Assembly: GCF_001638985.1 (NCBI RefSeq) | Contig: NW_017265134.1 | Span: 2,571,732 to 2,635,731 of the forward strand | DNA from: Phycomyces blakesleeanus NRRL 1555(-) | Taxonomy: Eukaryota > Mucoromycota > Mucoromycetes > Mucorales > Phycomycetaceae | DNA: 64,000 nt | Direction of reading: 5' to 3' | Notes under the pieces: generated by a model | Told to the model about the DNA's origin: nothing | Database searches by the model: none | The model's input: the letters and a program-made list of their open reading frames with translations, nothing else | Shown: in pieces, positions 16,068 through 41,169 of the stretch | Layout: the number at the start of each line of letters is the position of its first letter | Numbering within the stretch: the first letter of the stretch is position 1 | Position numbers and translations under genes: made by a program

Positions 16068-16222
16068 AGAGAATATAATTTTATTTTCTAGTCTTACTTT
16101 TAAATTTAGTAATAATTAATACTTATTTCTAATACTATATTTCTAATTTAATAATAAATTTAAGAGCTAAGTATTTAGATTATTACATCTTTAATAATAG
16201 ATAATATTTTTTATTTTTTATT

Positions 16223-16382
16223 TCTCTTAGCTTAATTTCTCTCTCTAGCTTTTCCCAATTTACTCTCAAGTTTTTTTTTCATATCTTTTATTTTTATTTG
16301 TACTCATAAAGATGGGCAATAGCTCTACAGTGCGTGTGCCTATTGAACTTTTATACTAATGTTTTATTTGTAACAGCAAACC
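16223..16382 (+). mobile_element. Diverged LINE 3' end in plus orientation (copy D)
   Basis: The stretch matches the reverse complement of the 3' UTR of copies A and B, including CTTAGCTTAATTTC.., GTACTC, GGGCAATAGCTCTA and GTGCGTGTGCC. It ends in GTAACAGCAAACC, a mutated inverse of the first tRNA-Val bases. It therefore appears to be an older insertion of the same LINE family at an oppositely oriented tRNA-Val sequence. Confidence 0.65.
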
Positions 16383-16386
16383 ATCT

Positions 16387-16401
16387 GGTTTGCTGGTGTA
16401 G
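16387..16401 (+). repeat. tRNA-Val 5' fragment, target duplication left of copy A
   Basis: GGTTTGCTGGTGTAG equals the first 15 nt of the intact tRNA-Val at 22848 and directly abuts the 3' end of LINE copy A. Confidence 0.9.
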
Positions 16402-17653
16402 GTAAAAGATTTTTATTGAAAGGCTAGTGGGCACACGCACTATAGAGCTATTGCCCGCCTTTAAGAGTACAAAAAAGAATAATAGAAAGGAAAAAGACCC
16501 AAGAGGGGAAATGGGAAAAACTAGAAAGGGAAACTAAGCTAGGGGATACAAAAAAAGGGAGATAAGGATAAAATATGAAGCATGCATGAAATTCATGCAA
16601 TAAATGGAAACTAAGACTAATACAGATCTAAACTAAAAATAAAAGGAGATGACCAGTCTCATTTGGGTAGCCAGTTCAAGAAGAGTTGTCCTCTGTCTGT
16701 TGCAGCATGATCAGCAAGATCAACTCCAGGGAGACAGATCTGTTCTATGTCCAACATGATTCTACAAAGAATTGGCCAAGTAAAGATCCAGAAGGCATTG
16801 TTCTTGTTGTTTTTAAGTTTCTTCAGAGGCAGCATATTGAGTACATAATCAATTGGATTGGGTTGTACTGTAGAATAGAGATGGAGACGAATTGCAGCTC
16901 CAGTGCACTCAATGACATGATGATGGCTGGTGGTATGCAATCCACAGGAACAAGGTTGAGGACGTCCAGGAAGCCACCCCATACGCCAACGTATGAATCT
17001 ACTACGTTCATAGTTAGTCATGGGAAGCCAGAGAATAGGGTCAACACCAAGAGAAGAACGGCAAGCAGAGAGAAGTATTTGTTGAGAGCGTTGCAAGAAG
17101 AGGCCCTGGTTCAAAAATGAACGAATGGCATGCTTGCAAGCTTTAGAATCAGCATTCTGATGATTGGAGAGAGACAACCAAATGGGATTAGCTAAAAGCT
17201 TAAACCATTGGTGTGCTGGGTTTGTAAGAACAGGTCGAAGAAGAGTAAACAGAGCCTCATCAGACAACCAGAAAGCATGATATACAAACTTGAAACCAAG
17301 AGTCAAGATCCTCTCCCTCATGCTAGGAAGATTCTCAAGGTGACGGAAAACAGATGTAGAAGATGTGGAGTGACCTCCAAAAATCATGCGTAAGCATGTG
17401 TTCTGGGCCTTTTCAAGCACAGCAACTTGTTTAATGTTGAAGCAGGATATTGCCAGGCCATACTCAAATTGTGGACGAATAAACTGGCGATACAAACGAA
17501 TTGAGAGTAGACGTGACAACCCAGTGTGATTGACACCAAGTGATTGAAGAGCACGCATGCTGTTGATAGCAGAGACACAATTACGAGAGATGAGAAGAGA
17601 TGGATCAATAGTCCCCTTTGCTAAGAAGGGAACACCAAGGTAAGGAAACGAAT
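16402..17653 (-). mobile_element. LINE copy A, 5'-truncated, tRNA-Val-targeted family
   Basis: This 1.25-kb copy matches 17669-18922 of copy B with scattered substitutions and stops abruptly at its 5' side (17653), next to a tRNA-Val fragment. It keeps the 3' UTR and the last 299 codons of the reverse transcriptase ORF (16659-17558), including the C-terminal Cys/His motif PCSCGLHTTSHHHVIEC. The polymerase core is missing, so it is dead. Several changes (for example Arg to Cys near the 5' end of the frame) separate it from copy B. Confidence 0.9.
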
Positions 17654-17668
17654 GGTTTGCTGGTGTAG
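17654..17668 (+). repeat. tRNA-Val 5' fragment, target duplication between copies A and B
   Basis: The same 15-nt sequence GGTTTGCTGGTGTAG abuts the 3' end of copy B. Confidence 0.9.
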
Positions 17669-17927
17669 GTAAAAGATTTTTATTGAAAGGCTAGTGGGCA
17701 CACGCACTATAGAGCTATTGCCCGCCTTTAAGAGTACAAAAAAGAATAATAGAAAGGAAAAAAACCCAAGGGGGAAAATGGGAAAAACTAGAAAGGGAAA
17801 CTAAGCTAGGGGATACAAAAAAAAAGGGAGATAAGGATAAAATATGAAGCATGCATGAAATTCATGCAATAAATGGAAACTAAGACTAATACAGATCTAA
17901 ACTAAAAATAAAAGGAGATAGCCAGTC

Positions 17928-20555
17928 TCATTTGGGTAGCCAGTTCAAGAAGAGTTGTCCTCTGTCTGTTGCAGCATGATCAGCAAGATCAACCCCAGGG
18001 AGACAGATCTGTTCTATGTCTAACATGATTCTACAAAGAATTGGCCAAGTAAAGATCCAGAAGGCATTGTTTTTGTTGTTTTTAAGTTTCTTCAGAGGCA
18101 GCATATTGAGTACATAATCAATTGGATTGGGTTGTACTGTAGAATAGAGATGGAGACGAATTGCAGCTCCAGTGCACTCAATGACATGATGATGGCTGGT
18201 GGTATGCAATCCACAGGAACAAGGTTGAGGACGTCCAGGAAGCCACCCCATACGCCAACGTATGAATCTACTACGTTCATAGTTAGTCATGGGAAGCCAG
18301 AGAATAGGGTCAACACCAAGAGAAGGATGGCAAGCAGAGAGAAGTATTTGTTGAGAGCGTTGCAAGGAGAGGCCCTGGTTCAAAAATGAACGAATGGCAT
18401 GCTTGCAAGCTTTAGAATCAGCATTCTGACGATTGGAGAGAGACAACCAAATGGGATTAGCTAAAAGCTTAAACCATTGGTGTGCTGGGTTTGTAAGAAC
18501 AGGTCGAAGAAGAGTAAACAGAGCCTCATCAGGCAACCAGAAAGCACGATATACAAACTTGAAAGCAAGAGTCAAGATCCTCTCCCTCATGCTAGGAAGA
18601 TTCCCAAGGTGATGGAAAACAGATGTAGAAGATGTGGAGTGACCTCCAAAAATCATGCGTAAGCATGTGTTCTGGGCCTTTTCAAGCACAGCAACTTGTT
18701 TGATGTTGAAGCAGGATATTGCCAGGCCATACTCAAATTGTGGACGAATAAACTGGCAATACAAACGAATTGAGAGTAGACGTGACAGCCCAGTGTGATT
18801 GACACCAAGTGATTGAAGAGCACGCATGCTGTTGATAGCAGAGACACAATTACGAGAGATGAGAAGAGATGGATCAATAGTCCCCTTTGCTGAGAAGGGA
18901 ACACCAAGGTAAGGAAACGAATGAGCATGAGGAATAGGCACATTGTAGAGAGAGAATGACAAAGGAGAAAGAGAACAAGAATGGTGAAGGATCATGCACT
19001 TGGTGGGACTCCAACGATATCCTAGCTCTTGAGAATGTTGTTCAGCAGAATTCAGAATGACAGGTATAGCTTCTGGTGTAGCAATGATGGCAACATCGTC
19101 AGCAAAAAGTAGTGAATTGACTAATTGATCATTGAGTCTTGTGGCAGCAGTCTGGTTAAATACTGTGTTACAAAGTTCCCCTGCAGCACGAAGAGCAACT
19201 GGTAGAGAATTTATGTACACAGAATAAAGGTGGAGAGAAAGCACAGATCCTTGCATAACGCCAGTCAATGGTTGGAATGATCTGGATGTTGCACCAGAAA
19301 GCAACACCTCAACTTGAACATTGTCAAAAAGACTTTGTAACAAAGCTAACATAGCATCAGAGGCAAGAGGACGTAACGATGTCCATACTACAGAACGATC
19401 AACAGTGTCATATGCAGACTTGATATCAAGAAAAGCCAAGACTGATGGTGCTTTGAATAGAGCTGTGTGACGACGGACCATCTCATGGAGACAAAGAACT
19501 TGATCAAGGGAGCTACGTTGACGTTGAAATCCACCCTGTGCAATGTCAATTGTTGGAGACACATCTGCAAGAGGAAACTGTAGACAATATTCCATGGCTT
19601 TTCTCAGGATAGACGTTAAGCTAATGGGACGATAGTTAGCAGGGTCATGAGTATCACCCTTTTTAAAGATGGGGACAATTTGTGCAGTACGCCATGCAAG
19701 AGGTGCAGAACCCCATTGCCAACAAAGCTGGAACAAAAGACAAAGAACAGGAGAGACTTGCTTAACAATTGGGTGAAGCATTTCAGCACGAAGATGGTCA
19801 ACACCAGGAGCCTTGCGTGTAGGAAGCTTGAGAATTGCACTCTCTACAGAAAGATGAGTAAAAGGACACGATTCATCAATTGCAATTGGTGATGAAATCA
19901 TCACTGTCTGGTCTGGAGGGCGGCGTGCAGGAAGAAATTGACCTGAGAAAATCTGTTGAAGATGATCAGCCATTTTGTTAGCAGCTACTTGAGGTCCACC
20001 CGGATCCACAAAGACAGGACTGGTTTGACGATGGCTTTTAATACGTTTCATTGTTGCTGTGGTCTTTGCAAAGTCTTGTGTTGCCAATTTGTTGCAGAAT
20101 TCTTTCCATGTTTCACGTCGACGACGCTGGACTGATACCCTAACAGCATGACATGCATCCTGATGGCGCATCCAGCATATAGCCTTCTGCAAACCACTAG
20201 AATGACGCCAGCGTTGGTAGCTGCGTTCTCTCAGATCCATTGCTTCTTGAAGGTCCACTGACCAGAACCAGTACTTTTGCATGGTACGTGGTATACGACG
20301 ACCAACAGCAGTGTCCAGAGCATCATAGATAGCTTGAGCAAAAGCAGAGCACAGAGAATCTACAGGAGGAGGAGAAGAAGAGGAAAGGAAAGCACTGAAC
20401 TGCTCTGTCAGATTGTCCAATGACGCAGAAGCTGTATCAATGTAGATCTTGAGAGTGTCAGGCTGAGCAAGCTTGGAAAGATTCCAAAGTAGGCGCGGAT
20501 GATTAGTAGGGGGAGGGGGAGGTGAAACATAGGGAGTGAAAGTGAGGTTGACCAT
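17928..20555 (-). CDS. LINE copy B reverse transcriptase (ORF2, second part)
   Basis: The frame encodes 875 aa. It carries RT landmarks in order: TRKAPGVDHLRAEML, PIFKKGDTHDPANYRPISLT, GGFQRQRSSLDQVL, LAFLDIKSAYDTVD (first catalytic Asp), GVMQGSVLSLHLYSVYI and LLFADDVAII (the catalytic Asp pair). The C-terminus has a Cys/His cluster CSCGLHTTSHHHVIEC, typical of non-LTR ORF2 proteins. It makes cDNA by target-primed reverse transcription. The start ATG directly follows the TAA that ends the endonuclease frame, in the same phase, so the stop splits what is one polypeptide in most LINEs. The usual LSP after QGS reads LSL here, which may hurt activity. Confidence 0.85.
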   Translation of the reverse strand: MVNLTFTPYVSPPPPPTNHPRLLWNLSKLAQPDTLKIYIDTASASLDNLTEQFSAFLSSSSPPPVDSLCSAFAQAIYDALDTAVGRRIPRTMQKYWFWSVDLQEAMDLRERSYQRWRHSSGLQKAICWMRHQDACHAVRVSVQRRRRETWKEFCNKLATQDFAKTTATMKRIKSHRQTSPVFVDPGGPQVAANKMADHLQQIFSGQFLPARRPPDQTVMISSPIAIDESCPFTHLSVESAILKLPTRKAPGVDHLRAEMLHPIVKQVSPVLCLLFQLCWQWGSAPLAWRTAQIVPIFKKGDTHDPANYRPISLTSILRKAMEYCLQFPLADVSPTIDIAQGGFQRQRSSLDQVLCLHEMVRRHTALFKAPSVLAFLDIKSAYDTVDRSVVWTSLRPLASDAMLALLQSLFDNVQVEVLLSGATSRSFQPLTGVMQGSVLSLHLYSVYINSLPVALRAAGELCNTVFNQTAATRLNDQLVNSLLFADDVAIIATPEAIPVILNSAEQHSQELGYRWSPTKCMILHHSCSLSPLSFSLYNVPIPHAHSFPYLGVPFSAKGTIDPSLLISRNCVSAINSMRALQSLGVNHTGLSRLLSIRLYCQFIRPQFEYGLAISCFNIKQVAVLEKAQNTCLRMIFGGHSTSSTSVFHHLGNLPSMRERILTLAFKFVYRAFWLPDEALFTLLRPVLTNPAHQWFKLLANPIWLSLSNRQNADSKACKHAIRSFLNQGLSLQRSQQILLSACHPSLGVDPILWLPMTNYERSRFIRWRMGWLPGRPQPCSCGLHTTSHHHVIECTGAAIRLHLYSTVQPNPIDYVLNMLPLKKLKNNKNNAFWIFTWPILCRIMLDIEQICLPGVDLADHAATDRGQLFLNWLPK

Positions 20556-21224
20556 TTAGTGATCAGAGCCTAAAGAAAGATCAGAACGAATTTGCATAGA
20601 AGGATTGAGAAGGGGGAATGTAGAAAGAAATAAATCAATGACACTGGAGCGTGAGGTACCAGAGCCACCAGAAAGAAAGGTAGGAATACCAAATGCAAGT
20701 AATTCATTCCAACAAGTGAGACCAGTTGCCTGGATCCACTGAAGAAAAGAAGTTCCTCGCGAAGTGATAGCATGGTCACCAAGAAAGGATCCCATACGTG
20801 AATTAAAATCACCACAAAAAATAGTGTTAGAAGAAGGAATAGAAGAAGAAGAGAGGGGGAGGTTATAAAGAATAGAAATTGCATCATCATTAGAAAGAGA
20901 AGGGGGAAGATAAATGCAATGAATAAGAAAATCAAATACAATACAAGAAAGAACATAAGGAGAAGAAGAAGGAACAATAGAAATGGGGTAAGAGAAAGAA
21001 GGATTTACAAGAAGAGAAATACCCATGCAGCCACGGCTAGCATTGGGGACAGACTGACCATAGGTATGGTACTGCTGCCAAGAAGTAAGATAACGATGGG
21101 GGGACAAAAGCCACGTTTCAGTGATAAAAAGAAGGGAAGTAAGTGGAGCATATGAAAGGATCGTAGGTATGGTCTGTTTTGCAAGACCATTTGCATTCCA
21201 TAATGTAATTGTTACTGGATTCAT
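20556..21224 (-). CDS. LINE copy B apurinic-type endonuclease (ORF2, first part)
   Basis: The frame encodes 222 aa of exonuclease-endonuclease-phosphatase fold: TLWNANGLAKQ (Asn), FITETWL (Glu), CGDFNSRMGS (Asp/Asn), SVIDLFLST (Asp) and a final SDH motif with the catalytic His. This enzyme would nick the tRNA-Val target. The frame ends in TAA immediately after SDH and is followed without gap by ATG, a TAAATG junction. Its own ATG overlaps the ORF1 stop as ATGA. The TAA may be a point nonsense mutation or a stop-restart signal. Copy A does not cover the site and cannot decide. Confidence 0.8.
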   Translation of the reverse strand: MNPVTITLWNANGLAKQTIPTILSYAPLTSLLFITETWLLSPHRYLTSWQQYHTYGQSVPNASRGCMGISLLVNPSFSYPISIVPSSSPYVLSCIVFDFLIHCIYLPPSLSNDDAISILYNLPLSSSSIPSSNTIFCGDFNSRMGSFLGDHAITSRGTSFLQWIQATGLTCWNELLAFGIPTFLSGGSGTSRSSVIDLFLSTFPLLNPSMQIRSDLSLGSDH

Positions 21225-22462
21225 AGATCAGAGAATGAAGGGATGGTGATGCTGGCAGTATGTATAGAGATGTCCAAGTCTTTTTTGGTGGGTCGTGGGG
21301 GAACAATCTCAGCTAGTTGGTCATCACTAATCCATCCCTGAGAGCAAAAGGAACGTGCAACAGCAAACTTGACAGGAGCCCTAATGAATTCAATGGCACG
21401 TAGCATACAATCATTGTGAACATGTATAGCTTTTGTTGCCCTATCATCAAGTGAAAGAGAGGCCAGAGCTGGGTCACGGAGGTGAACAGGGTCCAGAGGA
21501 TCAAAGTTATCCAAAGTAGTAACACCATAACTCGCCAAGATAGTCTTGAGCTCAGGAGCATACTCATTATGTACAAGCATTCCCATCACCTTACGATCAG
21601 GATAGTGGAGATCCAGCACACGTGCATTGTCTATCTTTAATTTCCTAAGACGTTGACATTGAGTACTAATGGGGAGACGGATAGCATTAGGTACATAAAC
21701 AATTTGAAACCCCTGATCAGCATTTTCTTTAATTGTCATGCCACAAACAACAGCAGCAATGGCCCTAGCAGTTGGAGCCCTTTTACGTGGTGTTTTAGAA
21801 ACAAAAGTCTTGGTGGGTTCAGTGGAATGATGGGTCTGGGATGCAGGAAGTGATGGAAAATCAGCCTGAGAAACAACTGGAACAGAGGCAGCAATAGTAG
21901 CATATTTGGATGCTGCAGCACCAACAGAAAAATCAACATTCTCCTTTGTCAAACGTGCAATAGTGGCGTTTACAGTAGCAAGAGCCTTACGCAACTCAAT
22001 GTTCTCTTTTTGAACAGCCTCCAATGCAGAAAGATGTTCATCATAAGCCTGGAAACGGTCCCAAATATCCTGAAGAGTAGGCATTACAGTTGGAAGAACA
22101 GGTGCAATGTCAGATTCAATTTCATGGATATCTGCCATGGAAATACTATGACCCAAGATGGAAACAGAAGGGGACACAACAGGCTCACTTGCAGAATGAA
22201 CTTCAGGAATTTTGTATTGGACTGCATTGATCAAAGATTGCATGGATGAAGCAGTAAATGTTGCACCACATTTGCATTTAAACTGTGGGCTACCAGTACG
22301 AGAAGTAGACCCATTAGAAACAATTTTGCCTGTAGTCTGGCAATGTGAACAGGACAAAACATTGTGCAATTTTTTAAAGTCTGCCTTGAGGCCAGACAAA
22401 ATGAGAGCAGTGGGAGTAGGGCGGCCAGTGGAATTAATCACCTGTTTTTGGGAACCAATCAT
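21221..22462 (-). CDS. LINE copy B ORF1 protein
   Basis: The frame encodes 413 aa. Near the N-terminus lies a zinc-ribbon-like arrangement, CSHCQTTGKI then KCKCGATF (about residues 38-68), instead of the CCHC knuckles common in LINE ORF1 or Gag. A coiled-coil-like stretch follows (about 150-190: LSALEAVQKENIELRKALAT and on). The C-terminal part may hold an RNA-binding fold (VLDLHYPDRKVMGMLV). ORF1 proteins bind the LINE RNA. The stop overlaps the next ORF's start as ATGA, suited to termination-reinitiation. Confidence 0.75.
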   Translation of the reverse strand: MIGSQKQVINSTGRPTPTALILSGLKADFKKLHNVLSCSHCQTTGKIVSNGSTSRTGSPQFKCKCGATFTASSMQSLINAVQYKIPEVHSASEPVVSPSVSILGHSISMADIHEIESDIAPVLPTVMPTLQDIWDRFQAYDEHLSALEAVQKENIELRKALATVNATIARLTKENVDFSVGAAASKYATIAASVPVVSQADFPSLPASQTHHSTEPTKTFVSKTPRKRAPTARAIAAVVCGMTIKENADQGFQIVYVPNAIRLPISTQCQRLRKLKIDNARVLDLHYPDRKVMGMLVHNEYAPELKTILASYGVTTLDNFDPLDPVHLRDPALASLSLDDRATKAIHVHNDCMLRAIEFIRAPVKFAVARSFCSQGWISDDQLAEIVPPRPTKKDLDISIHTASITIPSFSDL

Positions 22463-22753
22463 TGTTGGAGGAGCTTGAAAAAAATTTCGTGGGAATCAGG
22501 AGCAGGCAAAGCAGAAAAAGAAAGGTCTGAAACTGGGACAAAAAAGTGCGAAGTTGATGGTAAAACACCAGAACCACCTTCAGAGAAGGAGAAAAGAGCT
22601 GGAGACGATAACAGAGGTACAGGCAATCGAGATGTAGTTGGAGATGCTGACAATCTTGAGTGATTTCGGCGCAGATGTGAAGATGATTGCAATGATGATT
22701 CCAACAATTTGAAAAAAAAGTCAATTAAAAAAATGAAAATTGGTAGATATATC
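22459..22753 (-). other. Open frame upstream of LINE ORF1, no ATG
   Basis: The frame is open from the 5' edge of copy B (22753) to a TGA at 22459-22461 that overlaps the ORF1 ATG as ATGA. It is Ser/Pro/Leu-rich (for example LSASPTTSRLPVPLLSSPAL) and contains no ATG. It could be the end of a leader ORF whose start was lost by 5' truncation, or a chance frame. Confidence 0.35.
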
Positions 22754-22768
22754 GGTTTGCTGGTGTAG
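22754..22768 (+). repeat. tRNA-Val 5' fragment, target duplication between copies B and C
   Basis: The third stranded copy of GGTTTGCTGGTGTAG. Confidence 0.9.
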
Positions 22769-22847
22769 GTAAAAGATTTTTATTGAAAGGCTAGTGGGCA
22801 CACGCACTATAGAGCTATTAGCCGCCTTTAAGAGTACAAAAAAGAAT
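22769..22847 (-). mobile_element. LINE copy C, 79-bp remnant of extreme 5' truncation
   Basis: Only the last 79 bp of the LINE 3' UTR are present, from GTAAAAGATT to AAAAAAGAAT, with one small difference from copy B (ATTAGCC for ATTGCCC). It is bracketed by the 15-nt tRNA repeat and the intact tRNA gene. It is the copy nearest the tRNA, hence by the insertion geometry the most recent. Confidence 0.9.
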
Positions 22848-22921
22848 GGTTTGCTGGTGTAGTTGGTTATCACGTATGCCTCACACGCATAAGGTCGCCG
22901 GTTCGAACCCGGCGCAAATCA
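22848..22921 (+). tRNA. tRNA-Val (anticodon CAC)
   Basis: A 74-nt cloverleaf is readable. The acceptor stem is GGTTTGC/GCAAATC (one G-U pair) with discriminator A, the D arm holds GTGTAGTTGGTTATCAC, the anticodon stem is TATGC/GCATA around loop CTCACAC (CAC), and the T arm is GCCGG TTCGAAC CCGGC. The internal A box (TGGTGTAGTTGG) and B box (GGTTCGAACC) are intact, so Pol III transcription should survive despite the LINE copies at its 5' edge. No intron is present. Confidence 0.95.
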
Positions 22922-25173: not shown

Positions 25174-28100
25174 ATGGAGTACCCTCTTGACTACAAAACA
25201 AACCCGTCTTATATTGAGTTCTGGCAGAAGATAGCGAAGATACACGCCACAAAAGTATTAGTGCGCTACCACTGCACTAATGATAAAGGGAATGATGTTT
25301 ATAAAACATTGACTTATGAGCAAGTTGATCGTATGTCAACGAACCTTGCTCTCGAGTGGAGCAAATCTATATGCGAGGCTGTCACTGTAGGATTTATTAG
25401 CGATCATACTCCATTCTATTTGATTTCAATGCTGGCAATTATGAAACTAGGCGTAATTTTCCTGTCCTTATCCCCTCGCAACTCCCCTGATTCAGACGCA
25501 AGCTTATTAAAGGCCACGGAAACCAAATTCCTTATTGCTTCAACTAAGTACAAAAATACAGCCCAAAGTACTGCGAGCCAGGTTGAGGGTTGTCGTGTAC
25601 TCATTTTTCCAGATTTTGACCTGGAGTATCTATCAAAACAACCCCTGAATTCTCAAACTGACTTTATGTCTATCATTTGTGCGCAAACCCCCGAGTCAAT
25701 TATTTTGATTGGTCACAGGTAAGCTAGGTATTATCTCACTACTAATTTATAAATAATTACCAAAACAAACTAGCTCTGGAACAACAGGATTTCCTAAGCC
25801 TATACGCTTAACAAACCGCTTTATGATCCATGTTATACAATCATTATCTATCGGGATCGAAGACACAAACAAAAATATAGAGTATACATGCTCAGATGTT
25901 ATATTGCCGTGTACACCATTGTATGTCTCTTGTATTTTGTGTTTATTGATACTATCGTATACTTACAATATAACATAGGTTCCATTCATTCGGTCTATTT
26001 GCAATATTCAATGTGCTACTAGTCGGTGCCAGCGTTGTATTTTTGAAACAACTTCTTCCTTCAATACCAGAGCTTATTTTTGCAATTGAAGCCAACAAGT
26101 GTACTTTCATGATGGTACCACCATTAGTTTTAGAGCAGATGTTAGCCCACTGCCAAGAACAAAGTGATTTCTCTCCATTACAACAGCTCAAATTAACAAT
26201 GTAAGTTTAACAACTATAGTACTCTTTGCCCTTTGTCACTCAGCTATTTCCATTTTTGTCAGTTTCGGTGGGGCCCCTCTTAAACAAGAAGTGGGGAGCT
26301 TCTGCGAGTCAAAAAATATTATCATTCGTAACAAGTATGGTGCCTCAGGTATTGTATACAATATATGATGTTGGATATATTTGATTTACTTAATCTTTCT
26401 TTCTTATTCAGAAATTGGCTCATTTATGATAAGTGACCTTGCTCCTAATACCAAGCAATGGAACACTTTAAGACCTTTACCACCTCTGAGAAAATATTGT
26501 ATCTGGGAACCTTACTTTGCTGATTCAGAGTTAGTTCATCTGGTTATAAAGGGTGATTGTCCTTCAATTGCACATGGAGTTGTCAACAGGGAGGATGGAA
26601 ATTATGGGACCAGAGATCTATTTAAAGAGACCTCACCAAACTCCGGGTATTACTCTTATTATGGGCGAATGGACGATACACTAATCATGTAAGTGCAAAT
26701 ACAACCAAAAAAAAAGCTCGAGACCCCCTTTTTTATTTTATTTTATTTTACTTTACTTTACTTTTTAGGAAAAATGGAGAAAAAACCAATCCTTTACCTA
26801 TTGAGGCCACCATTAGACAATGTCCTATTGTCAGTCAGTGTGTTATAATTGGAGAGAGTCGTCAATGTATATCTGTATTGATCGAGCTGTCCGCAGAGAG
26901 CCCCAAAGAATACACCACTGAAGAAATCACAGATATTGGTAAGACCTGTCACCATGAAAAGAAAAGGGATTCAGAGGAGGATTTTGTCAAAAAATGCATA
27001 TGATATTTTTCAAAAGTACCTTCTGAATCACTCTCTATCCCATAGTATATACTTTGCAAATCCCAGACGCTAATAACTATTATTTATTATATAACTAGTA
27101 TACCATTATATTCGAGAAGCGAATAAAAGTGCACCGACACATAGTATGATATTTAAGCAAATGATCTATATATTGCCCTTAGGAGAGACTTTGCCAGCAA
27201 CTGCCAAAGGGACTGTGATACGCAAACACGCCTACAATGAATATAAAGATGTCATAGAAAAGCTCTATGTCAACTTCCTTGAGGGTCCACAAAATTCTGC
27301 AGATGAGAGTATTGCTGCTGCCTTGTTATGGTCTCCCGAGGAAGTTAAACTATTTATAGTCAAATCCGCGGCAGAAGTACTTGGTATACCCCAAGCAGAC
27401 ATTAAAGACAGTAGTAAATCACTTTTTGATTTTGGATTAAATTCTATTACTTCCATTCAGCTGCGTAACAGGTTATCCAAAATCTTTGGAAAACTTTCCC
27501 AGAACTTTCTATTTCAGTATCCAACCATTGATCAAGTAGCCGTGGCTCTATTAAGAGGCCCACAATATCACAATACATGGGTTGATGAGCGTTTGAGCAA
27601 GACGGAAGAGATTCTAGACAGCTATCTGAAACGGGCCAGCCAAGACTTTGAAATCACTAAAAATTCCTACGTCAAAGATCAAGATCAAGTAGTTTTGCTC
27701 ACGGGTGCAACTGGGTCACTGGGATCATTCATGCTGAGGGATCTCCTCAAGTCTCCTCAAGTCTCCAAGGTCTACTGTCTTGTTCGTGGTAAAGAAGCCG
27801 GAGCACTCAACCGAATCTACCATGCTTTTGAGAGTCGAAGCCTCGATGTCTCGCTCTTGAGTTCACCAAAGCTTGTCGCCCTACCAATGAATTTGACGGA
27901 TGAAAAGTTGGGTTTCGCGCATGATTTCTACTCCAAACTCAAATCAGAAGTCACTATTATCCAGCACTGTGCCTGGCTTCTTGATTTCAACCATACGGTC
28001 GAACATTACGACAAAGAGTGTATTAAAGGTCTTTACAATCTGGTCAAATTTTCTTACCGACAGATCAACCCCATCCACCTCCACTTTATTTCGAGTATCA

Positions 28101-28852
28101 GTGCAAGCGCAGGCTGGGGAGCCACTATCCCAGAGTCACCTCTGCCACGTAACACAAAGGTTGCAATGCCAATTGGATACGCACAGTCAAAATACATTGT
28201 TGAGTACCTTTTCAATTATCTCACAAAAGAAAAAAACCTTCCATGCATTATTGCGCGACTCGGTCAGGTCTGTGGGGACTCTATAAATGGCGTGTGGAAT
28301 ACAAGTGAGCAGTACCCACTTATGTTTATTGGTGGTGGAAGCGTTATGAAAAAGGTAGGCCTATTATATATTTATATTTATGTATTTGAGCAGTATATCT
28401 AACTACTACTATTATTTATGATCTAGATGCCTCGTTTGAACACTGCTATTGACTGGATCCCTGTCGATTATGCCGCAGCATGTATTGTTGATATTATGCT
28501 CAAGACCACATCCAAGCCCGTGGATATCAACGAATCAGTCTATCATATCGTCAACCCTTATAGAGTTACATGGGAGGACTTGTTAAAAGCAATGAGGTAT
28601 TCCGGAATGTCATTCGAGACTGTACCGGTAAAAGAGTGGATCAGAGAACTGAAAAAGGACGATAAAAATCCTGCTTTTAGACTTGTGTCCTTTTATGAGA
28701 ATACTCTTGACGAAACCTTCACAATGCCTGTATTAAGCACTGAAAAAACAATTCTATTTAGTCCAATACTTAGAAATTGCTCTGCACTAGATACCCAACT
28801 GCTTAAAAAATTTGTTTTATATTGGAAATCTATTGGATTTTATAAAAATTAG
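25174..28852 (+). CDS. NRPS-like adenylate-forming reductase 1 (A-PCP-R); join(25174..25718,25774..25920,25979..26200,26263..26348,26412..26688,26769..26938,27099..28354,28427..28852)
   Basis: Eight exons give 1042 aa with no frame break. The adenylation domain (about 1-525) has the phosphate-binding SSGTTGFPKP (exon 1/2 junction, about residue 184), YGASEIG, the hinge region GRMDDTLIMKNGEK, and ATAKGTVIRK in place of the usual GK-type A10 motif. A carrier domain follows with phosphopantetheine Ser in FDFGLNSITS (about 598). The C-terminal thioester reductase (Rossmann, NAD_binding_4 type) has TGATGSLG at about 684 and YAQSK at about 843-847. Family knowledge: the acid is adenylated, held as thioester and reduced to aldehyde or alcohol with NAD(P)H. 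Domain order matches Lys2 and fungal aryl-acid reductases, but no condensation domain exists and the substrate is unknown. Intron 6 is 160 bp, far longer than its 59-66 bp counterparts. Confidence 0.88.
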
Positions 28853-31001: not shown

Positions 31002-34000
31002 TTAAGCTAGTGTACCGATGTGTTTTTCTATTACAGTGGACGCTTTTTGTGCCACAACGCCTGACAGAAAGGGTTGGTCATCAAAAACAAATTTCCAATG
31101 AGCACTCCAAATCGCTTTAGCAGTGACAGCGGAAAGGATAATCCAAAGGCCTTGATGGGAGGAACGTGGTGGGAAGCTGCCTCTGGTAAGGAGAAGGCAG
31201 ATTTCAGCAAGGTTCCAGGCCGGGCAAAAGCGAGAGAGAATGACATTCCACACCTGCCGTTTGATAGAACAGCCAAAGAAAAAGTGATACTGATCTTCAG
31301 TAGCATCTTGACAAAAGATGCAAGATGAGCTGGGGAAGCGTCGAGGTATAAATATATTGAGACGTTTTCGGGTTGGCGTTCTATCCCAAAGCATTTTCCA
31401 CCAGACTGTGCGACAGTGGTGGGGTATAGAGACAGACCAGAAGTTACGCCATTGGACAGACGAATTTAGAGATGAGGGCACTTGCGGGCGAAGATGGCGT
31501 CGAAGAGATCCGGTGCTAGCTTTACCCAATCTAGTGTTGTCCAACCGTACCAAAGAAAGAAGTGAGGAAAGATCGGGGGAAGGGGTGTCAGTAGAAGGTC
31601 GATGTTCAAGGCAAGAGATAAACCAAGGACAGAGGACCATCCTGCCAGAATCAATCTGTTGGAAGAAATGACCGATACGATTACGTGCCCGAGAAAACGT
31701 ACCACGAACCTTGCGGACAAGACGGTCATCAGTCTCCAGAGAAAATGCGTCAGAAACCAGAATTGTTTTCAGGTTCAGAGAAGAGTCAACAAAGGGTGGC
31801 ACGTTCATCCATATTGAAGTTAATGGGAAGTGTTGGACCACAGTTGGCGGCAATTGCAAGTTGGATGGGAGAGAAGCTGGAAGAAGTGAGGTACAAGCGC
31901 GATGCAGTGGAAGAAGTGAAGTCGGGCAAGTTGCACTACTACAGGGAAACAAAAGTGCGATACTGGCAGAAGGAGCGCGAAAGTTTAGAGGAAGTATAAA
32001 TTCGAGGTATGGCAGTATAAAGGAAGTAGAAGAAAAAGAGTGAGAATGCAAGATAGGGAGAATCCAGCGCAATTGAAGAGCTCGTTGTTGATGATCAGGA
32101 TCAATCAGGCCCAAACCGCCTGATTTGCGTGGCAGACAGAGAAGCGGCCAGCCAGGGCTACCGAAACCTAGTCGCAGGAACGAGCGAATATGAGTGCGAA
32201 TGGCAGCAAAGAAAGATAGCGGTGCAGGAGTCACGTATAGCATATGCCATACTGAGCTGAGAAGAAGTGAGTTTGCCACAATACTTTTACCACGAACGGA
32301 CAAGCATCTTTGAGAAAGTAGCGTGCAATGGTTCCTAAGCTTGACCAGTAAAGCCGCACGGAAGGTCTCAAGCTGGGACGGATGTGAGCTCAATGGGAAG
32401 CCTAGGTAACGGATGGCAGTGGCGGAGTGACGGTCATGTCGACTGTGAATATCAGCAGCATCCAATACAGGGCCCCAATCCGGATGAAATTGTCCAGACA
32501 TAGCAACAGCAACTGTCTTATGGAGATTGACTTTCGCGTTAGAGGCTAAGCCAAATATACGCAAAAGGTTGAGTAGACCACTCATCTCGGCAGGCAGAGA
32601 AAGAAAGACGAGAAGGTCATCGGCATAAGCAAGAAGTTTGAGTGGAGGTGGTGAGAGCTCAGGAGAGGACGATGAGAGAGATGGCGGAACCAGAAATCGG
32701 AAACCACGGATGGCAGGAGAAGCGAGAATGGATCTAAGCAAAGGTTCGAAGGCCAGGTTAAACAGCAAGGGGGAGAGAGGATCACCTTGACGTAGCCCCC
32801 GGCTTTGTAGAAAAGAAGAAGATATGTGCCCATTCACATTCACGTGGATTTGAGTAGAAAAGAAGAGACCACAGATGGAGTCAACAAAAATTGTGGGGAA
32901 ACCGGCTCTGGCCAGGACAAGACGAAGATACGCAGGGTGGACACGGTCATAGGCCTTCTCCTGATCCAAAAGAAGGGCAACACATGGGTCTTGGGTTATT
33001 TGTGCATGTGACATGGCAAGGCGTGTCAGCAAACCATTGTCAGCAATAAACCGATCTGCCATAAAACCCGTTTGGAATGGTGTTATGAGTGTGTCGATAC
33101 CATATCGTAAACGGGACGTAAGCATTTTGGTGAACAACTTGGCGTCACAGTTTATAAGAGATATGGGTCGCCAGTTGCGGAGAGAGGTAGTGTCACCGGC
33201 TTTTGGTAGGAGAACAAGTACGGTTTCCAGCCAAGATGGAGGAAAAACACCATGCAATGCATTATTATAGACTTGAACTGCAAGATTTTGGACCGTTGGG
33301 TGACAGAAGAGCCGAGCCCATAATGGGTAGGGCAAACCATCCATCCCAGGACTAGAGTTGATGGGGGTGGCTTTAAGGACAGACAGAATGTCATCCAAGG
33401 TGACATCAGCAATGAGGTAGGCAGAGTCAGTGGAAGACAGACGGGCAGAAGGTGGGAATTTGTCGATAAGAGAGTGTGCAGCAGGATAGTCAATGGGTTC
33501 CGGCGAGTAAAGAGATTGGTAGAAAGAGCGAGTATGGCCAAGCAAATCCGCGGGAGAGGTGTAGATCGCGCCAGTGACAGGGTCGACAAGAGAGGAGATA
33601 GTTTTTGCAGCGGCTCGCTGTTTGAGCATACGAAAGAAATATTTCGAAGAAGTCTCGCCAGCTTCACACCATTTAGCACCAGATCTGGCAGCCAAGGTGG
33701 AGGCCCGAGACAATTGTATGGTGGCAAGCTCATGTTCAATGCGGAGAAGTTGAGGAGAACGAGTATGAATTGCAAGTTCATTTCGAGCACGATGAAGATG
33801 GCGTTCCTGATTTCGGAGTTGACGTTGAACTCGTTTAGAGTACGTTAGGGCGAGCTGTTTGATAGCATGCTTAATATGATCCCACCGAGAACCGGGAGAC
33901 ATGTCAGGAGAGAGAAAAGAGTCGGCCTTATCCAGAAAGTCGGTAATGAGAGCATCAAATTCATCATGCAGGAGATATTGCGTATTAAACCTCCAGACTC

Positions 34001-34715
34001 CAGGACCTGGTGGGCGAGAGAAAGGAATGGAGACCGCAAGAAGGCAGTGGTCAGTCCATAAAGGATTGATAAATGTTACCTCAGGGCGTTCGGTAACAAT
34101 GCTGTGTGGACGGAAAATGTAGTCGATGCGTGTGCGGGTGCGAGAGCTGTGGAAAGTGGGTAACGGGGGTGAAGAAGAATTAGTGATGGCATCCACGCAA
34201 TTACCCTGAATGTATCCTTTCCAGTCCGGTGGATGGCTGCGATGATGGCTAAGATCACAGTTAAAGTCCCCCAGAATAAAGGCGGGCAGGGAAGGAATGA
34301 CAGTAGGGAGAGTGCGTGCTAATGAGGAGAAGAAAGTACGCCGGTGGGAAGGAATGTTGGGTGCATAAATAACCACAACTACAAAAGGATTAACACGATG
34401 GTCGGTATGTGTAACCTTGACAACGAGTGCACGGTTGTCAGGAGAAACATGCAGTTGAGATAATTGGAGGAGGGGATCGAAAGAGACGAGGCCGCAATGT
34501 GGGGTCCATAGGCTGGCCTGTGCTTGGAATGTAAGGTGAATAGATGAGTGATGTATAGGGAGTAAATGAGTCTCTTGGAGAGCAAGTAATGAAAGGGAAG
34601 GGGAAAGGGTACGAAGGTGTCGGATGAAAAGAAGTTTTGGGGATTGCGGGTTATTGATGGTAGAGAGGAGACCTCGAACATTCAAGGTTCCTATGCGAAG
34701 ATGTTGTACAGTCAT
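31002..34715 (-). CDS. LINE-2 ORF2: endonuclease and reverse transcriptase
   Basis: The frame encodes 1237 aa. The N-terminal AP-type endonuclease (about 1-230) shows TLNVRGL, LQETHLL, YAPN, GDFNC, RIDYIF and TDHCLL. The RT has SPGMDGLPYPLW, NWRPISLINCDAKLFTKML, LLLDQEKAYDRV, GLRQGDPLSPLLFNLAFEPL and LLAYADDLLVFL with the catalytic Asp pair. The C-terminus has the zf-RVT pattern: TVWWKMLWDRTPTRKRL, then CIFCQDATEDQYHFFFGC. These features resemble the L1/Tx1-like group rather than RNase H-bearing fungal Tad elements. Its ATG directly follows the ORF1 TAA (TAAATG), a stop-restart junction. All catalytic residues look present. Confidence 0.92.
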   Translation of the reverse strand: MTVQHLRIGTLNVRGLLSTINNPQSPKLLFIRHLRTLSPSLSLLALQETHLLPIHHSSIHLTFQAQASLWTPHCGLVSFDPLLQLSQLHVSPDNRALVVKVTHTDHRVNPFVVVVIYAPNIPSHRRTFFSSLARTLPTVIPSLPAFILGDFNCDLSHHRSHPPDWKGYIQGNCVDAITNSSSPPLPTFHSSRTRTRIDYIFRPHSIVTERPEVTFINPLWTDHCLLAVSIPFSRPPGPGVWRFNTQYLLHDEFDALITDFLDKADSFLSPDMSPGSRWDHIKHAIKQLALTYSKRVQRQLRNQERHLHRARNELAIHTRSPQLLRIEHELATIQLSRASTLAARSGAKWCEAGETSSKYFFRMLKQRAAAKTISSLVDPVTGAIYTSPADLLGHTRSFYQSLYSPEPIDYPAAHSLIDKFPPSARLSSTDSAYLIADVTLDDILSVLKATPINSSPGMDGLPYPLWARLFCHPTVQNLAVQVYNNALHGVFPPSWLETVLVLLPKAGDTTSLRNWRPISLINCDAKLFTKMLTSRLRYGIDTLITPFQTGFMADRFIADNGLLTRLAMSHAQITQDPCVALLLDQEKAYDRVHPAYLRLVLARAGFPTIFVDSICGLFFSTQIHVNVNGHISSSFLQSRGLRQGDPLSPLLFNLAFEPLLRSILASPAIRGFRFLVPPSLSSSSPELSPPPLKLLAYADDLLVFLSLPAEMSGLLNLLRIFGLASNAKVNLHKTVAVAMSGQFHPDWGPVLDAADIHSRHDRHSATAIRYLGFPLSSHPSQLETFRAALLVKLRNHCTLLSQRCLSVRGKSIVANSLLLSSVWHMLYVTPAPLSFFAAIRTHIRSFLRLGFGSPGWPLLCLPRKSGGLGLIDPDHQQRALQLRWILPILHSHSFSSTSFILPYLEFILPLNFRAPSASIALLFPCSSATCPTSLLPLHRACTSLLPASLPSNLQLPPTVVQHFPLTSIWMNVPPFVDSSLNLKTILVSDAFSLETDDRLVRKVRGTFSRARNRIGHFFQQIDSGRMVLCPWFISCLEHRPSTDTPSPDLSSLLSLVRLDNTRLGKASTGSLRRHLRPQVPSSLNSSVQWRNFWSVSIPHHCRTVWWKMLWDRTPTRKRLNIFIPRRFPSSSCIFCQDATEDQYHFFFGCSIKRQVWNVILSRFCPAWNLAEICLLLTRGSFPPRSSHQGLWIILSAVTAKAIWSAHWKFVFDDQPFLSGVVAQKASTVIEKHIGTLA

Positions 34716-36062
34716 TTATGAACTTGGCTGACCTGAGCGGTCAGACTTTTCAGTTCCATCAGTCATAGGTGTGTTACCATCCAGATCAGTATACGGGAAT
34801 GCACCTTGGGCGCGAGTCCGGAGAGTGGCCTCAAAAAGAGACTGTCGAAGTTCGTCATCAGTGTAAATTGCTGGGTTAATGCCATCATCGCGACTATGTA
34901 GGCCTCGGGCGCCTGGTGAGTGCTTGCTGGCATTGAGCCCACGGCCAGTCGGGTCATACATAGTTGTATCAAATGGAATTGGGGGATTGTCGTTGTGTGG
35001 GGTCCGGTTTCTGGTCGTCATGGCGCGAGTATTCATCACTGATATGGAACGGCGACGTATTGTGTGTGTAGCAGGTGGGTTGAGAATGGGTGAAGCATGG
35101 GTAGGAGTCAAGGTTGATGAAGTGACTGGTGGTACGGGTGTCTCTATCATAGCGACCGAGTATTGGTGTGCGCGAAGGGACGCAGTATCGGCAAGTGCAA
35201 TCTGCTGCTGCTCTTGGATAGCCCGTTCGGCTTCGATATTGTCTGGATGAGTGGGGCACTCGCGACTGTCTATGGCGTGACCAAGAACACCGCATCGTTG
35301 GCAGCGAGGTGCGCGGGGAGGACGTTTTGTGCAGGAGCGTAGATAATGCCCTTCCTCTCGGCAGTATCCACACACAGGTGTGATATCGGTGGAGCGGAGC
35401 TCAGCAAGGCAGGAAAGAGACCCACCAAGGTGGAGACGGCTTGGGAGACTGCGGACTTCATCTTGTCCAGAGGTGTCTAAATAGATAGTGGCTTCGCCAC
35501 GGAAAGTACCACGGTGTGAGAGATAAGCTCTCAGCTGAACGATTTTGCCAAAAGGCCGGAATGCATTTTCGATGGGCTCGAGTAGATCTGTGCTAGGATC
35601 GCAGGCGTTAATACGGTAAAGATTAACCTTAACAATGTGGCTGTTAGAAGGCAATCTTGGTGTAGCAATGATTCGGGTGTTCTGATAGGTCAACCCGTCG
35701 GACGTTGCTTTGGTGCGGGAGGAAGGGTCAGTAAAGAAGGCTTCTGCCAGAAGGTCTTTTGAGCGAGTATAACGGAGAGTGAGAGAGGTCATCCGGCCTA
35801 CACGGTCAGAGAGAACATCATCCACGTCCCTTGCGGGAACGAGTTTTCCGAGATTAAACAAGACACTCATTGGATGGATGGTACTAGCCCATGCAGCGGA
35901 TGCAAGATCCACAATCATATTCTTGTCAAAGTTGGGAGCAGTGAAGATGTGCAAAGATTTGTTCTTTGGACGTAGTGTTGTAGACTGGGCACGGTTAGGT
36001 GGGTTACCTTGCCGTAACGTGTGTGCCCTGTCCTGTGGGTTCAATCCCTCAGGGGTACTCAT
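34716..36062 (-). CDS. LINE-2 ORF1, CCHC zinc-knuckle RNA-binding protein
   Basis: The frame encodes 448 aa. After a basic N-terminus, an RRM-like region (about 140-230) precedes paired zinc knuckles at about 242-275: CGYCREEGHYLRSC, then CQRCGVLGHAIDSREC. The C-terminal 150 residues are Thr/Pro/Arg-rich and probably disordered. Such proteins coat the element RNA and act as chaperones. The stop TAA abuts the ORF2 ATG. The ATG at 36060-36062 is the first in the frame, 82 bp from the element's 5' end. Confidence 0.85.
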   Translation of the reverse strand: MSTPEGLNPQDRAHTLRQGNPPNRAQSTTLRPKNKSLHIFTAPNFDKNMIVDLASAAWASTIHPMSVLFNLGKLVPARDVDDVLSDRVGRMTSLTLRYTRSKDLLAEAFFTDPSSRTKATSDGLTYQNTRIIATPRLPSNSHIVKVNLYRINACDPSTDLLEPIENAFRPFGKIVQLRAYLSHRGTFRGEATIYLDTSGQDEVRSLPSRLHLGGSLSCLAELRSTDITPVCGYCREEGHYLRSCTKRPPRAPRCQRCGVLGHAIDSRECPTHPDNIEAERAIQEQQQIALADTASLRAHQYSVAMIETPVPPVTSSTLTPTHASPILNPPATHTIRRRSISVMNTRAMTTRNRTPHNDNPPIPFDTTMYDPTGRGLNASKHSPGARGLHSRDDGINPAIYTDDELRQSLFEATLRTRAQGAFPYTDLDGNTPMTDGTEKSDRSGQPSS

Positions 36063-37561: not shown

Positions 37562-40500
37562 ATGAAGGATCCAATAAACTACAAAGAATCATTTATTGAC
37601 CTTTGGAACCAGCAATCAAAGATCCATGCAAACAACGTATTCTTGCGATACCATACTAGACTTAATGAAATGGAGGTCTATAAAACGCTGTCTTACGAGC
37701 AAGTCGATAACATATCAACCAGCATTGCCTGGGAATGGAGTTCAATTCTCTATGGCGTCAAGTCTGTAGGATTTATCTGCGATCACTCTGCATTCTACCT
37801 GATCGCGCAACTTGCGATAATGAAGCTTAATATATTATTCGTAGCCCTTTCTCCTCGTAACTCAGCCAGCGCTAATGGCAGTCTATTAAAAGCAACGAAC
37901 GCAGAATATATCATTGCCAGCCACAAGTATAGTCGTATGGCGTATGCATCTACCGCCAAGTTGGATAACTGTAAAGTATTCATTCATCAGCCGACAGATC
38001 TAAAGGCCGTGTCCCAAAAAACATACAACAATTCCAAAAAAATTCCAAAATTTTTTTCTCGTGTACTAGGCAGAGAAGCACCGGTCATGGTACTTCATAG
38101 GTATACCATAATACCAAACTTATATACCATAAAACTAATAGAATATATCGCTCTCTATAGTTCAGGGACTACAGGTTTCCCAAAGCCAATAACATTATCC
38201 AACCGATATATATTGACAAATATCCGGCATATTGACAATTGTATCCAAGACACAAATCCAAACATGATTTATAATTCTTCTGATGTGCTTCTTCCGTGCA
38301 TACCACTGTAAGTACTATATAAAATCCACCAGACAAGATAATGTCATGCTAAAAAATATACTCTTTAGTTTTCACGCATATGGTCAAGCAATGGTTTTTA
38401 GTACAATACTTCATGGATCAAGTGTTGCATTCATGAGTCAACTTCCTCCTTCTATGAAGGATATTAAGCTTGCCATTAGGGCAAACAAATGCACATTTAT
38501 GATGGCACCTCCATTGATTATAGAGCAGTTTTCGGCTTATCTTAAAGAAAAAAATGATTTCTCTGCACTTCAACAGCTCAAGCTTACCTTGTAAGTAAAA
38601 CTAAAAAAAAACAAAAACTAATTGCATTAATCTAATAATTAACCTTGATTGCCCTGTCATTTACTTTTTTTTAAAGATGCGGAGGGGCACCAATCAGAGA
38701 AGAATCAGGGGTTTTTTGGGAGTCAAAAAATATAGTTATCCGCAATCACTATGGCAGCACTGGTAAAAGCAAACATATAGAATTGTCATTAATTGCTCTT
38801 ATTAAATGCATTTCTCTTTTTAGAAACTGGCCCATTCATGTCTAGTAGCTTCGCTCCTAATACTATTCACTGGAACAATTTACGCCCTTCTCGACTAATA
38901 ATAGAATATTGTGTCTGGGAACCTTACTTTGCTGATCCAGAGCTAGTTCATCTGGTTATAAAGGGTGATTGTCCTTCAATGGCACATGGAGTTGTCAACA
39001 GGGAGGATGGAAATTATGGGACCAGAGATCTATTTAAAGAGACCTCACCAAACTCCGGGTATTACTCTTATTATGGGCGAATGGACGATACACTAATCAT
39101 GTAAGTGCAAATACAACCAAAAAAAAAAAAGCTCGAGACCCCCTTTTTTATTTTATTTTATTTTACTTTACTTTACTTTTTAGGAAAAATGGAGAAAAAA
39201 CCAATCCTTTACCTATTGAAGCCACCATTAGACAATGTCCTATTGTCAGTCAGTGTGTTATAATTGGAGAGAGTCGTCAATGTATATCTGTATTGATCGA
39301 GCTGTCCGCAGAGAGCCCCAAAGAATACAACACTGAAGACGTTATAAAGATTGGTAAGACCTTCACTTTACAAGTCCCAGACGCTAACCAATATTATTTA
39401 TTATTTAAACAGTATATCCTTATATTTTAGAAGCAAACAACAGTGCACCGACGCATAGTATGCTATTCAAGCAAATGGTCTATATATTGCCACCAGGAAA
39501 GACATTACCAGTAACTGTCAAGGGAACTGTAGTACGAAAACACGCATACAATGAATATAAAGAATCAATAGATACTTTATACAGAGACTTTCATAGTGGT
39601 GTTTCAGAAGAACCACTTCAGAATATTACCGAATACCAATATATAGCTCCAGAGGAAATCAAACTATTTCTTATCGATGCTGCCGCCAAAGTACTCAACA
39701 TTTCTCCCAACGAGCTCAAGGACACCACTAAATCACTTTTTGATCTTGGTCTGAATTCCATCCTCTCAATCCATTTGTGTAACATTATATCCAAGAAACT
39801 TGGATCTGTATCACAAAACTTTATATTTCAACACCCAAACATCGACAACATCCAAAGAGTTTTGTCCTCAAGACATAGTCCTTACGAAGTACCGATCGAA
39901 AAAAGCCTAGACAATACTGAAGAAATCCTGAAAAAGTATTTGAAACAGGCCAGCCAAGACTTTGAAATCACTAAAAATTCCTACGTCAAAGGCCAAGATC
40001 AAGTAGTTTTGCTCACGGGTGCAACTGGGTCGCTGGGATCATTCATGCTGAGGGATCTCCTCAAGTCTCCTCAAGTCTCCAAGGTCTACTGTCTTGTTCG
40101 TGGTAAAGAAGCCGGAGCACTCAACCGAATCTACCATGCTTTTGAGAGCCGAAGCCTCGATGTCTCGCTCTTGAGTTCACCAAAGCTTGTCGCCCTACCA
40201 ATGAATTTGACGGATGAGAAGCTGGGTTTCGCGCATGATTTCTACTCCAAACTCAAATCAGAAGTCACTATTATCCAGCACTGTGCCTGGCTTCTTGATT
40301 TCAACCATACGGTCGAACATTACGACAAAGAGTGTATTAAAGGTCTTTACAATCTGGTCAAATTTGCTTACCGACAGATCAACCCCATCCACCTCCACTT
40401 TATTTCGAGTATCAGTGCAAGCGCAGGCTGGGGAGACACTATCCCAGAGTCACCTTTGCCACGTAACACAAAGGTTGCAATGCCAATGGGATATGCACAG

Positions 40501-41169
40501 TCAAAATACATTGTTGAGCACCTTTTCAATTATCTCACAAAAGAAAAGAACTTTCCATGCATTATTGAGCGACTCGGTCAGGTCTGTGGTGACTCTATAA
40601 ATGGCGTGTGGAATACAAGTGAGCAGTACCCACTTATGTTTATCGGTGGTGGCAATGCTATGAAGAAAGTAAGTGTATTATCAGCCCTGAATGAAAGTTG
40701 ATTTTTTTTCTATTATTATTACTAAAATTTACGTGTCCAGATGCCCTCCATAAATATCAATGTTGATTGGATTCCTGTCGATTATGCATCAGCTTGTATT
40801 GTTAATATTATGCTCAAGACGGCCGGTGATATTTCATCAGCAGAGGATTCTGTGTATAATATTGTCAATCCTCGAAGAGTTGTGTGGAGGGATGTCTTAA
40901 ATGCCATGAGATTGTGTGGCATGGAATTCAAGACTGTTACACTTGAAGAGTGGATTGCACAACTGCAGCAAGATGACAAGAGTCCAGCTTCCAAGTTATT
41001 ACCTTTCTATGAAAATACTCTAAAGGAATTCTCTGAGGCACAAGTATGGAATACTAACAAGGCATGTTATCTTTTCCCATCCCTTGAAGAGACCCCTACT
41101 TTTGACGCTCGTTTGTTAAACAAGTACATCAAGCATTGGAAATCCATAGGGTTTTATAAGGATAAATGA
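37562..41169 (+). CDS. NRPS-like adenylate-forming reductase 2 (A-PCP-R); join(37562..38100,38161..38307,38369..38590,38677..38762,38824..39100,39184..39353,39413..40668,40741..41169)
   Basis: Eight exons give 1041 aa. Exons 2-7 have exactly the same lengths as in the other three paralogues. Motifs seen are SSGTTGFPKP, YGSTETG (Thr where the others have Ile), GRMDDTLIMKNGEK, TVKGTVVRK, carrier FDLGLNSILS, TGATGSLG and YAQSK. The adenylation domain is clearly diverged from paralogue 1 in exons 1-4. The second half of exon 5, intron 5 and exon 6 are almost identical to paralogue 1 including intron bases. Exon 7 reductase sequence is nearly identical to all paralogues, and exon 8 pairs with paralogue 3. 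Intron 1 is exactly 60 bp with no in-frame stop, so retention would insert 20 residues just before the phosphate-binding loop. Substrate unknown. Confidence 0.88.

Follow-up and report, generated by a model that had tools for sequence, protein, structure and literature searches.

The window is the whole 64,000-nucleotide stretch of the Phycomyces blakesleeanus NRRL 1555(-) genome that was analysed; coordinates are window positions and signs give the strand. It includes a complete tRNA-Val(CAC) gene (22848..22921, +; restored, in the reading proposed below), detected by ARAGORN and by Rfam (RF00005, 61.3 bits). Nt 1-15 of this gene (22848-22862) read GGTTTGCTGGTGTAG, and a search of the window found this 15-mer in exact form at 16387, 17654, 22754 and 22848 (chance expectation, up to 2 mismatches allowed: 0.09 per window). 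The first three are copies of the tRNA start (16387..16401, +, the first target duplication; 17654..17668, +; 22754..22768, +). Successive 15-mers are separated by 1,252, 5,085 and 79 bp, occupied by three copies of one LINE: copy A (16402..17653, -; 5'-truncated), copy B (17669..22753, -; slightly 5'-truncated) and copy C (22769..22847, -; 3' end only). The copies have the same orientation, a common 3' end and different 5' ends; they are 98% identical where they overlap, and all three end where a 15-mer begins. Their sense strand is the - strand: they are antisense to the tRNA, and each 3' end faces away from the intact tRNA gene. These coordinates and lengths agree with an earlier note, which described three same-orientation copies (1.25 kb, 5.1 kb and 79 bp) with a common end point; the 15-nt tRNA starts that it placed between the copies and the complete tRNA gene that it placed after the last one correspond to the exact 15-mers and to the ARAGORN and Rfam match. 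The array is preceded by the remnant of a LINE 3' end (16211..16382, +), old, decayed and oriented opposite to copies A-C; aligned with the LINE 3' end and 15 further nt, it is identical in 132 of 173 columns. At 16368-16382 it includes the tRNA-Val start in reverse, likewise decayed.

Copy B carries the proteins of the element. ORF1 (21221..22462, -; 413 aa) is without a confident domain, its best Pfam match lying under the cut-off. ORF2 consists of an endonuclease part (20556..21224, -; Pfam Exo_endo_phos_2, PF14529, E 2.6e-13) and a reverse transcriptase (RT) part (17928..20555, -; 875 aa; Pfam RVT_1, PF00078, E 2.7e-21), separated in copy B by an in-frame stop; ORF2 is a single 1,098-aa frame in two other copies. 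The RT part matches LINE-1 ORF2p (E 6.5e-16). A profile built on 24 relatives, beginning with the Thr-lineage ORF2 and excluding the Val ORF2, matches LINE-1 ORF2p across both the endonuclease and the RT (E 7e-43); it also matches the TRAS1 endonuclease (E 6e-5). The window's endonuclease alone gave no match when searched against solved structures. The features of an APE-type LINE are found: an AP-like endonuclease and a LINE-type RT in one ORF2, a variable 5' truncation with a 3' end that is constant in 25/25 cases, and a target site duplication (14-15 bp of tRNA start on either side).

The Val family, that is the LINE of the window and its relatives at tRNA-Val genes, was surveyed in one assembly of the strain (53.5 Mb, 60 contigs, with gaps; N runs are present in 5 of the 18 stretches fetched). 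The pattern used was 50 bases of the LINE 3' end, free of tRNA letters, with at most 3 mismatches. All of the 3' ends found (25/25) adjoin a tRNA-Val start (22 exact, two with one mismatch, one with two mismatches), a count outside which stand diverged old copies (>3 mismatches), copies whose 3' end is lost or in a gap, and pieces devoid of a 3' end. Exact 15-mers in the genome number 40 (35 AAC-type, 5 CAC-type) and all are accounted for by 18 intact tRNA-Val genes and 22 LINE 3' junctions. The five of CAC type are the two CAC genes and the three junctions of the window; CAC-type junctions are found only at the window's CAC gene. LINE 5' ends upstream of C17:877891, C17:939777 and C1:3247250 reveal three more copies, the 3' ends of which are outside the 25 (missing, or situated in an assembly gap). 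Among the 25, the two 3' ends at C17:848324 and C17:870071 are not traceable to a tRNA; N runs are found nearby. The earlier note had proposed a search of the genome for the LINE 3' end, with copies at unrelated sites, or a 15-mer belonging to the LINE itself, as outcomes that would speak against it; neither was observed, no 3' end having been found at an unrelated site.

The origin of the 15-mer is read from its letters. It could be supposed that the LINE carries these 15 nt as a tRNA-like tag at its 5' or 3' end, as they are present at every listed LINE 3' boundary. The duplicated 15 nt nevertheless read GGTTTCTTGGTGTAG at tRNA-Val(AAC) loci versus GGTTTGCTGGTGTAG at the CAC locus: the letters follow the local isoacceptor and are therefore target sequence, not element sequence. 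Copies truncated to 79, 1,123, 1,252 and 1,872 bp also keep the 15-mer at their 5' side, where a carried 5' tag would vanish. An element-borne 15-mer, which the isoacceptor match refutes, was rejected and has next to no probability.

The lengths of the 24 intervals between successive tRNA starts are 79, 1,123, 1,252, 1,872 and 5,085 bp, 5,214-5,222 bp in eleven cases and longer in eight. Copy B is thus just short of the length shared by eleven of the intervals, and the varied lengths show that the truncation points differ. This bears on a reading in which the arrays arose from tandem duplication or unequal crossing-over of one LINE with its 15 nt. Copies in two C17 arrays are 99.8% identical in the part compared and agree in their broken ORF2 pieces and in the scores of these, which makes some duplication or gene conversion likely. 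The three copies of the window have three different 5' truncations, which counts against this reading, as do the single insertions present at several unlinked loci. Pure tandem duplication was rejected for the window on account of the differing truncation points, and as an account of the arrays it is very unlikely.

The limits of the duplication were read from 24 consecutive junction pairs, one of which spans 29.5 kb and an assembly gap. The number of bases in common upstream of nt 1 is none in 10 pairs, one in 10, two in one and three in one; two pairs are unreadable (both flanks are LINE 5' ends). With no base in common in 10 pairs, at least that many duplications have nt 1 as their exact start. 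The 5' end of the LINE joins nt 1 of a complete tRNA: a 74-base tRNA-Val query found 16 AAC and 2 CAC genes, all 18 matched over 1-74, in agreement with the claim that the duplication restores a full tRNA. The LINEs might instead have entered tandem tRNA genes that already existed, with no duplication, in which case the intact tRNA would merely be the next gene in line; tRNA genes are commonly clustered. LINEs of varied truncation, however, stop at nt 1 in 16/16 AAC genes (with 7 extra bases in one), and the genome search with the 74-base query, even at E up to 1, gave no partial tRNA-Val and no orphan 3' half. This reading was rejected for the window and is extremely improbable.

The other limit is known within one base. 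Intact tRNA-Ala genes, targets of the sister lineage described below, all read GGGGATGTAGCTCAA and have A15 in 15/15 cases, whereas the LINE junctions starting with GGGGATG (n = 30; hand count of the junction list) have G15 in 29 and C15 in one. Nt 15 of the Ala junctions is most simply derived from the element, which would place the first cut after A14. At tRNA-Val genes, cuts after nt 14 and after nt 15 are indistinguishable because the terminal base of the element is, in most copies, G on the tRNA strand. Both positions are inside what we take to be the limits of box A. Of the junction said to lie directly after nt 15, the position inside the tRNA stands, and the exact base is uncertain by one (nt 14 or 15). 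Likewise, of the staggered cut that was put forward, the second cut before nt 1 is upheld and the first may be after nt 14 instead; the products are read, and cleavage and priming are deduced from their sequence.

The main reading, to which a probability of about 0.92 is given, is that these APE-type LINEs cut in box A, use the tRNA-sense strand for priming and generate a 14-15 bp duplication that rebuilds the tRNA. The endonuclease would place a nick in the tRNA-sense strand just after nt 14 or just after nt 15, and the 3'-OH so exposed would prime reverse transcription at the very 3' end of the LINE RNA, leaving no poly(A) in the DNA. A second cut, in the other strand, would fall opposite the start of the mature tRNA (nt 1), and repair would duplicate the 14-15 bp between the cuts. 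The arrangement observed is a LINE antisense to the tRNA, the 3' end of which joins nt 1-14/15 and the 5' end of which, often truncated, joins nt 1 of a complete tRNA. A gene rebuilt at each insertion can therefore be struck again, and arrays grow by insertion beside the tRNA. Selection may have removed insertions by which a tRNA was broken. A polarity of age in the arrays (youngest copy next to the tRNA) was judged from ORF damage, with a mixed result.

A second group of LINEs in the genome, the sister lineage, has an ORF2 that is 43% identical to that of the Val family. Fourteen short stretches beyond the sister ORF2 were analysed: the 3' end is followed by a reversed tRNA start in 13 and is lost from one (L053). 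Neither ARAGORN nor Rfam detected a tRNA in the 14 stretches, as expected of sequences with nothing more than tRNA starts. A pattern made of box A letters and the sister 3' end gave 75 junctions (at most 3 mismatches); it fixed nt 1 and nt 8-15, the independent letters are nt 2-7, and copies outside tRNAs are not listable by it. According to nt 1-7 (hand count), the junctions belong to Ala (31, including one in which a letter differs), Thr (18), Ile-like (8), Tyr (8), Phe or Phe-like (3) and Lys-like starts (3, presumably Lys); 4 are unassigned. The assignment to Tyr is based on letters and an apparent intron, ARAGORN having named none of the 5 Tyr genes (of 10) that were submitted; apart from Lys, the other tRNA names come from ARAGORN for some genes per class and from identical starts for the rest. 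The pattern of the Val family is thus repeated by the sister lineage at tRNA-Ala, -Thr, -Ile, -Phe and -Tyr genes. Arrays of Ala/Thr-type LINEs in one orientation are also present (C24, C1, C44, C35, C10); the copies are spaced at about 4.8 kb, and several are close to contig ends.

What sets the position of insertion can be read in two ways. The LINEs might be tethered to TFIIIB/TFIIIC on active tRNA genes, as proposed for the Dictyostelium TREs, so that the complex and not the DNA sequence determines the site. Two observations favour tethering: LINEs join several tRNA classes, which differ in nt 1-7, at one and the same position, and the second cut is at nt 1 whatever its sequence. The Val family, on the other hand, is found only at TGGTGTAG-type starts, which suggests direct reading of the sequence and is not decisive; the pattern used for the target range of the sister lineage, unlike the one for the Val family, included box A letters. 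Tethering is possible, if rather doubtful. The letters of box A are not enough to explain which targets are chosen, since tRNA-Cys genes also carry TAGCTCAG and none of the five has a LINE. A conserved 3' RNA fold was considered as a recognition signal and rejected: the Val end folds better than shuffles (z -2.4), and the Ala and Thr ends fold no better (z 0.3 and 0.7).

Occupancy was determined for 87 tRNA genes picked by similarity to Val/Ala or by box A letters, a subset of the tRNA genes of the genome. LINE sequence was found upstream of 51 (BLAST, E < 1e-3), including two weak matches (L096 and L123, 70 and 74% identity). It lies at most 2 nt from nt 1 in 50 of the 51, the exception being an AAC gene with its 7 extra bases (L033). 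Occupied genes are 16/16 for Val(AAC) and 1/2 for Val(CAC), the CAC gene on C21 being free of such an insertion; for the targets of the sister lineage they are 13/15 (Ala), 10/12 (Thr(AGT)), 6/14 (Ile), 3/10 (Tyr) and 2/11 (Phe). No LINE was found upstream of the Cys genes (0/5) or of two further Thr-like genes (0/2). Judged from these flanks, all the tRNA-Val(AAC) genes found have been rebuilt. The earlier statement that the host loses nothing is too strong, as a rebuilt gene has a LINE end instead of its own upstream sequence.

What is replaced may include a signal. Gibbs sampling on 35 LINE-free tRNA genes gave an upstream motif of 16 bases, consensus ACAACACACGTAACAA, the place of which varies (-24 to -27 in 15/35, -17 in 8/35). 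The motif was trained and scored on the same 35 genes, so that the fit is partly circular; the threshold (7.05 bits) is their 25th percentile, which 26/35 pass by definition. It is reached by 4.3% of shuffles and by 1 of 52 other genes (the 51 LINE-adjacent ones and the C21 CAC gene). At the outermost flanks of the Val loci, where the motif should remain, 2/15 reach the threshold (hand count). Rebuilt genes are mostly devoid of the motif, its retention at the outer flanks of arrays is weakly backed, and the idea of a native upstream motif as a whole has partial support. Many LINE-free tRNA genes (for example L083, L091 and L093) have sequences close to ACAACACACGTAACAA near -25 or -17, a possible external Pol III element.

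Eleven Val copies compared are 96.9-99.8% identical. Over pairs of these eleven, transitions (2,641) exceed transversions (500), which hints at decay through cytosine methylation or at repeat-induced mutation. The C21 CAC locus (L027, 1414-1496) has an old inverted LINE end like that of the window (61/83 identical). At both CAC loci, an old, inverted and decayed LINE 3' end continues into a tRNA-Val start that is likewise reversed and decayed, and 4 nt (ATCT) separate this start from the tRNA; the association of LINE and tRNA is therefore old. The inverted ends look as if two tRNA genes had formerly stood head to head. A tree of 37 rows out of 120 listed (5 Phycomyces, 15 named Mucoromycota proteins, 17 unnamed) has supported branches that separate the Val and Ala/Thr lineages among LINEs of Rhizopus, Mucor, Lichtheimia, Circinella, Absidia and Umbelopsis. 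This suggests that the targeting of tRNA genes either is older than the genus or arose twice. Only two distant relatives (24% and 31%) were found in a genome contig collection, and none in a viral contig collection.

Several elements with related specificities have been described. LINEs specific for tRNA-Pro, tRNA-Arg and tRNA-Glu genes (NeSL-1_TV, LIN15_SM, LIN25_SM: NeSL-related) resemble the Phycomyces LINEs in being specific for particular tRNA genes; the NeSL clade has a restriction-like endonuclease, whereas in Phycomyces an APE-type domain precedes the RT (Pfam), and restoration of the tRNA, described here for the Phycomyces LINEs, does not appear for the NeSL relatives in the passages of PMC4640811 compared. 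Dictyostelium TRE5/TRE3 and NLTR-A/NLTR-B are, like the Phycomyces elements, APE-type LINEs at tRNA genes (PMC5911963, in the parts compared). They insert at set distances outside the gene (TRE5, 40-54 bp upstream; NLTR-A, 2-6 bp upstream; TRE3, 40-150 bp downstream; PMC5911963), whereas the Phycomyces LINEs join inside it, after nt 14 or nt 15, with duplication of the gene start. After insertion the Phycomyces LINEs lie directly upstream of the tRNA and antisense to it, as TRE5 does (PMC5911963). Utopia, at U2 snRNA genes, likewise has a strict small-RNA-gene target and several copies per array; its endonuclease is of another type than the APE-type of the Phycomyces LINEs, and reptile Utopia makes 20-bp duplications (PMC4640811). 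Phytophthora U2 genes flanked by Utopia miss their first 38 bp and are called disrupted in that source; the Phycomyces target, by contrast, is rebuilt. Dada DNA transposons also have targets within tRNA genes, in the case of several families box A (nt 8-13), and differ by a DDE transposase, duplications of 6-7 bp and a host tRNA gene described as disrupted (PMC3706591, PMC8869645, in the parts compared); the elements described here encode RT and APE proteins and make 14-15 bp duplications. Dewa is a LINE linked to a tRNA gene family too, but it is found in the tRNA-Leu spacer and not in the gene (PMC3706591). A search of the open-licence literature, by titles and the beginnings of abstracts, found no earlier description of LINEs inside tRNA genes of Phycomyces or other Mucoromycota. 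The view that insertion inside a tRNA with exact restoration is unusual is accordingly narrowed: LINEs specific for tRNA genes were already known (PMC4640811), and an APE-type LINE that cuts inside the gene and rebuilds it is absent from the descriptions compared. Within the literature searched, LINEs in tRNA genes are known, and the routine restoration, the breadth and the near-complete occupancy appear to be new.

An insertion that remakes its target would allow a parasite to keep striking a low-copy essential gene without exhausting its targets. The persistence of five Utopia families on about ten intact U2 genes is, according to the part of PMC4640811 compared, hard to explain; this puzzle does not arise in Phycomyces because no target is lost. 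A wider and tentative reading, put at somewhat less than even odds, is that box A cutting and tRNA rebuilding are ancestral to a clade of Mucoromycota LINEs and have come near saturation in Phycomyces. tRNA-Val(AAC), most tRNA-Ala(AGC) and most tRNA-Thr(AGT) would then be read from genes with a LINE 5' end upstream, the LINE would be part of the setting of tRNA genes and the host would depend on rebuilt genes. The 16 rebuilt tRNA-Val(AAC) genes constitute a natural test of tRNA gene function with a transposon 5' end as the upstream flank. The landing site that the LINE makes is natural, renewable and exact in position, and would be useful for studies of target choice and second-strand cutting.

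Other features of the window include a second, unrelated LINE (31002-36062, -) with RT and zf-RVT matches and an ORF1 with weak zinc-knuckle matches; the only tRNA of the window lies away from it. Four similar genes are found in tandem (25174-28402, 37562-40701, 42492-45691 and 48126-51348, all +). The two pieces of them that were checked match AMP-binding, PP-binding and NAD_binding_4, like carboxylic acid or aminoadipate reductases.
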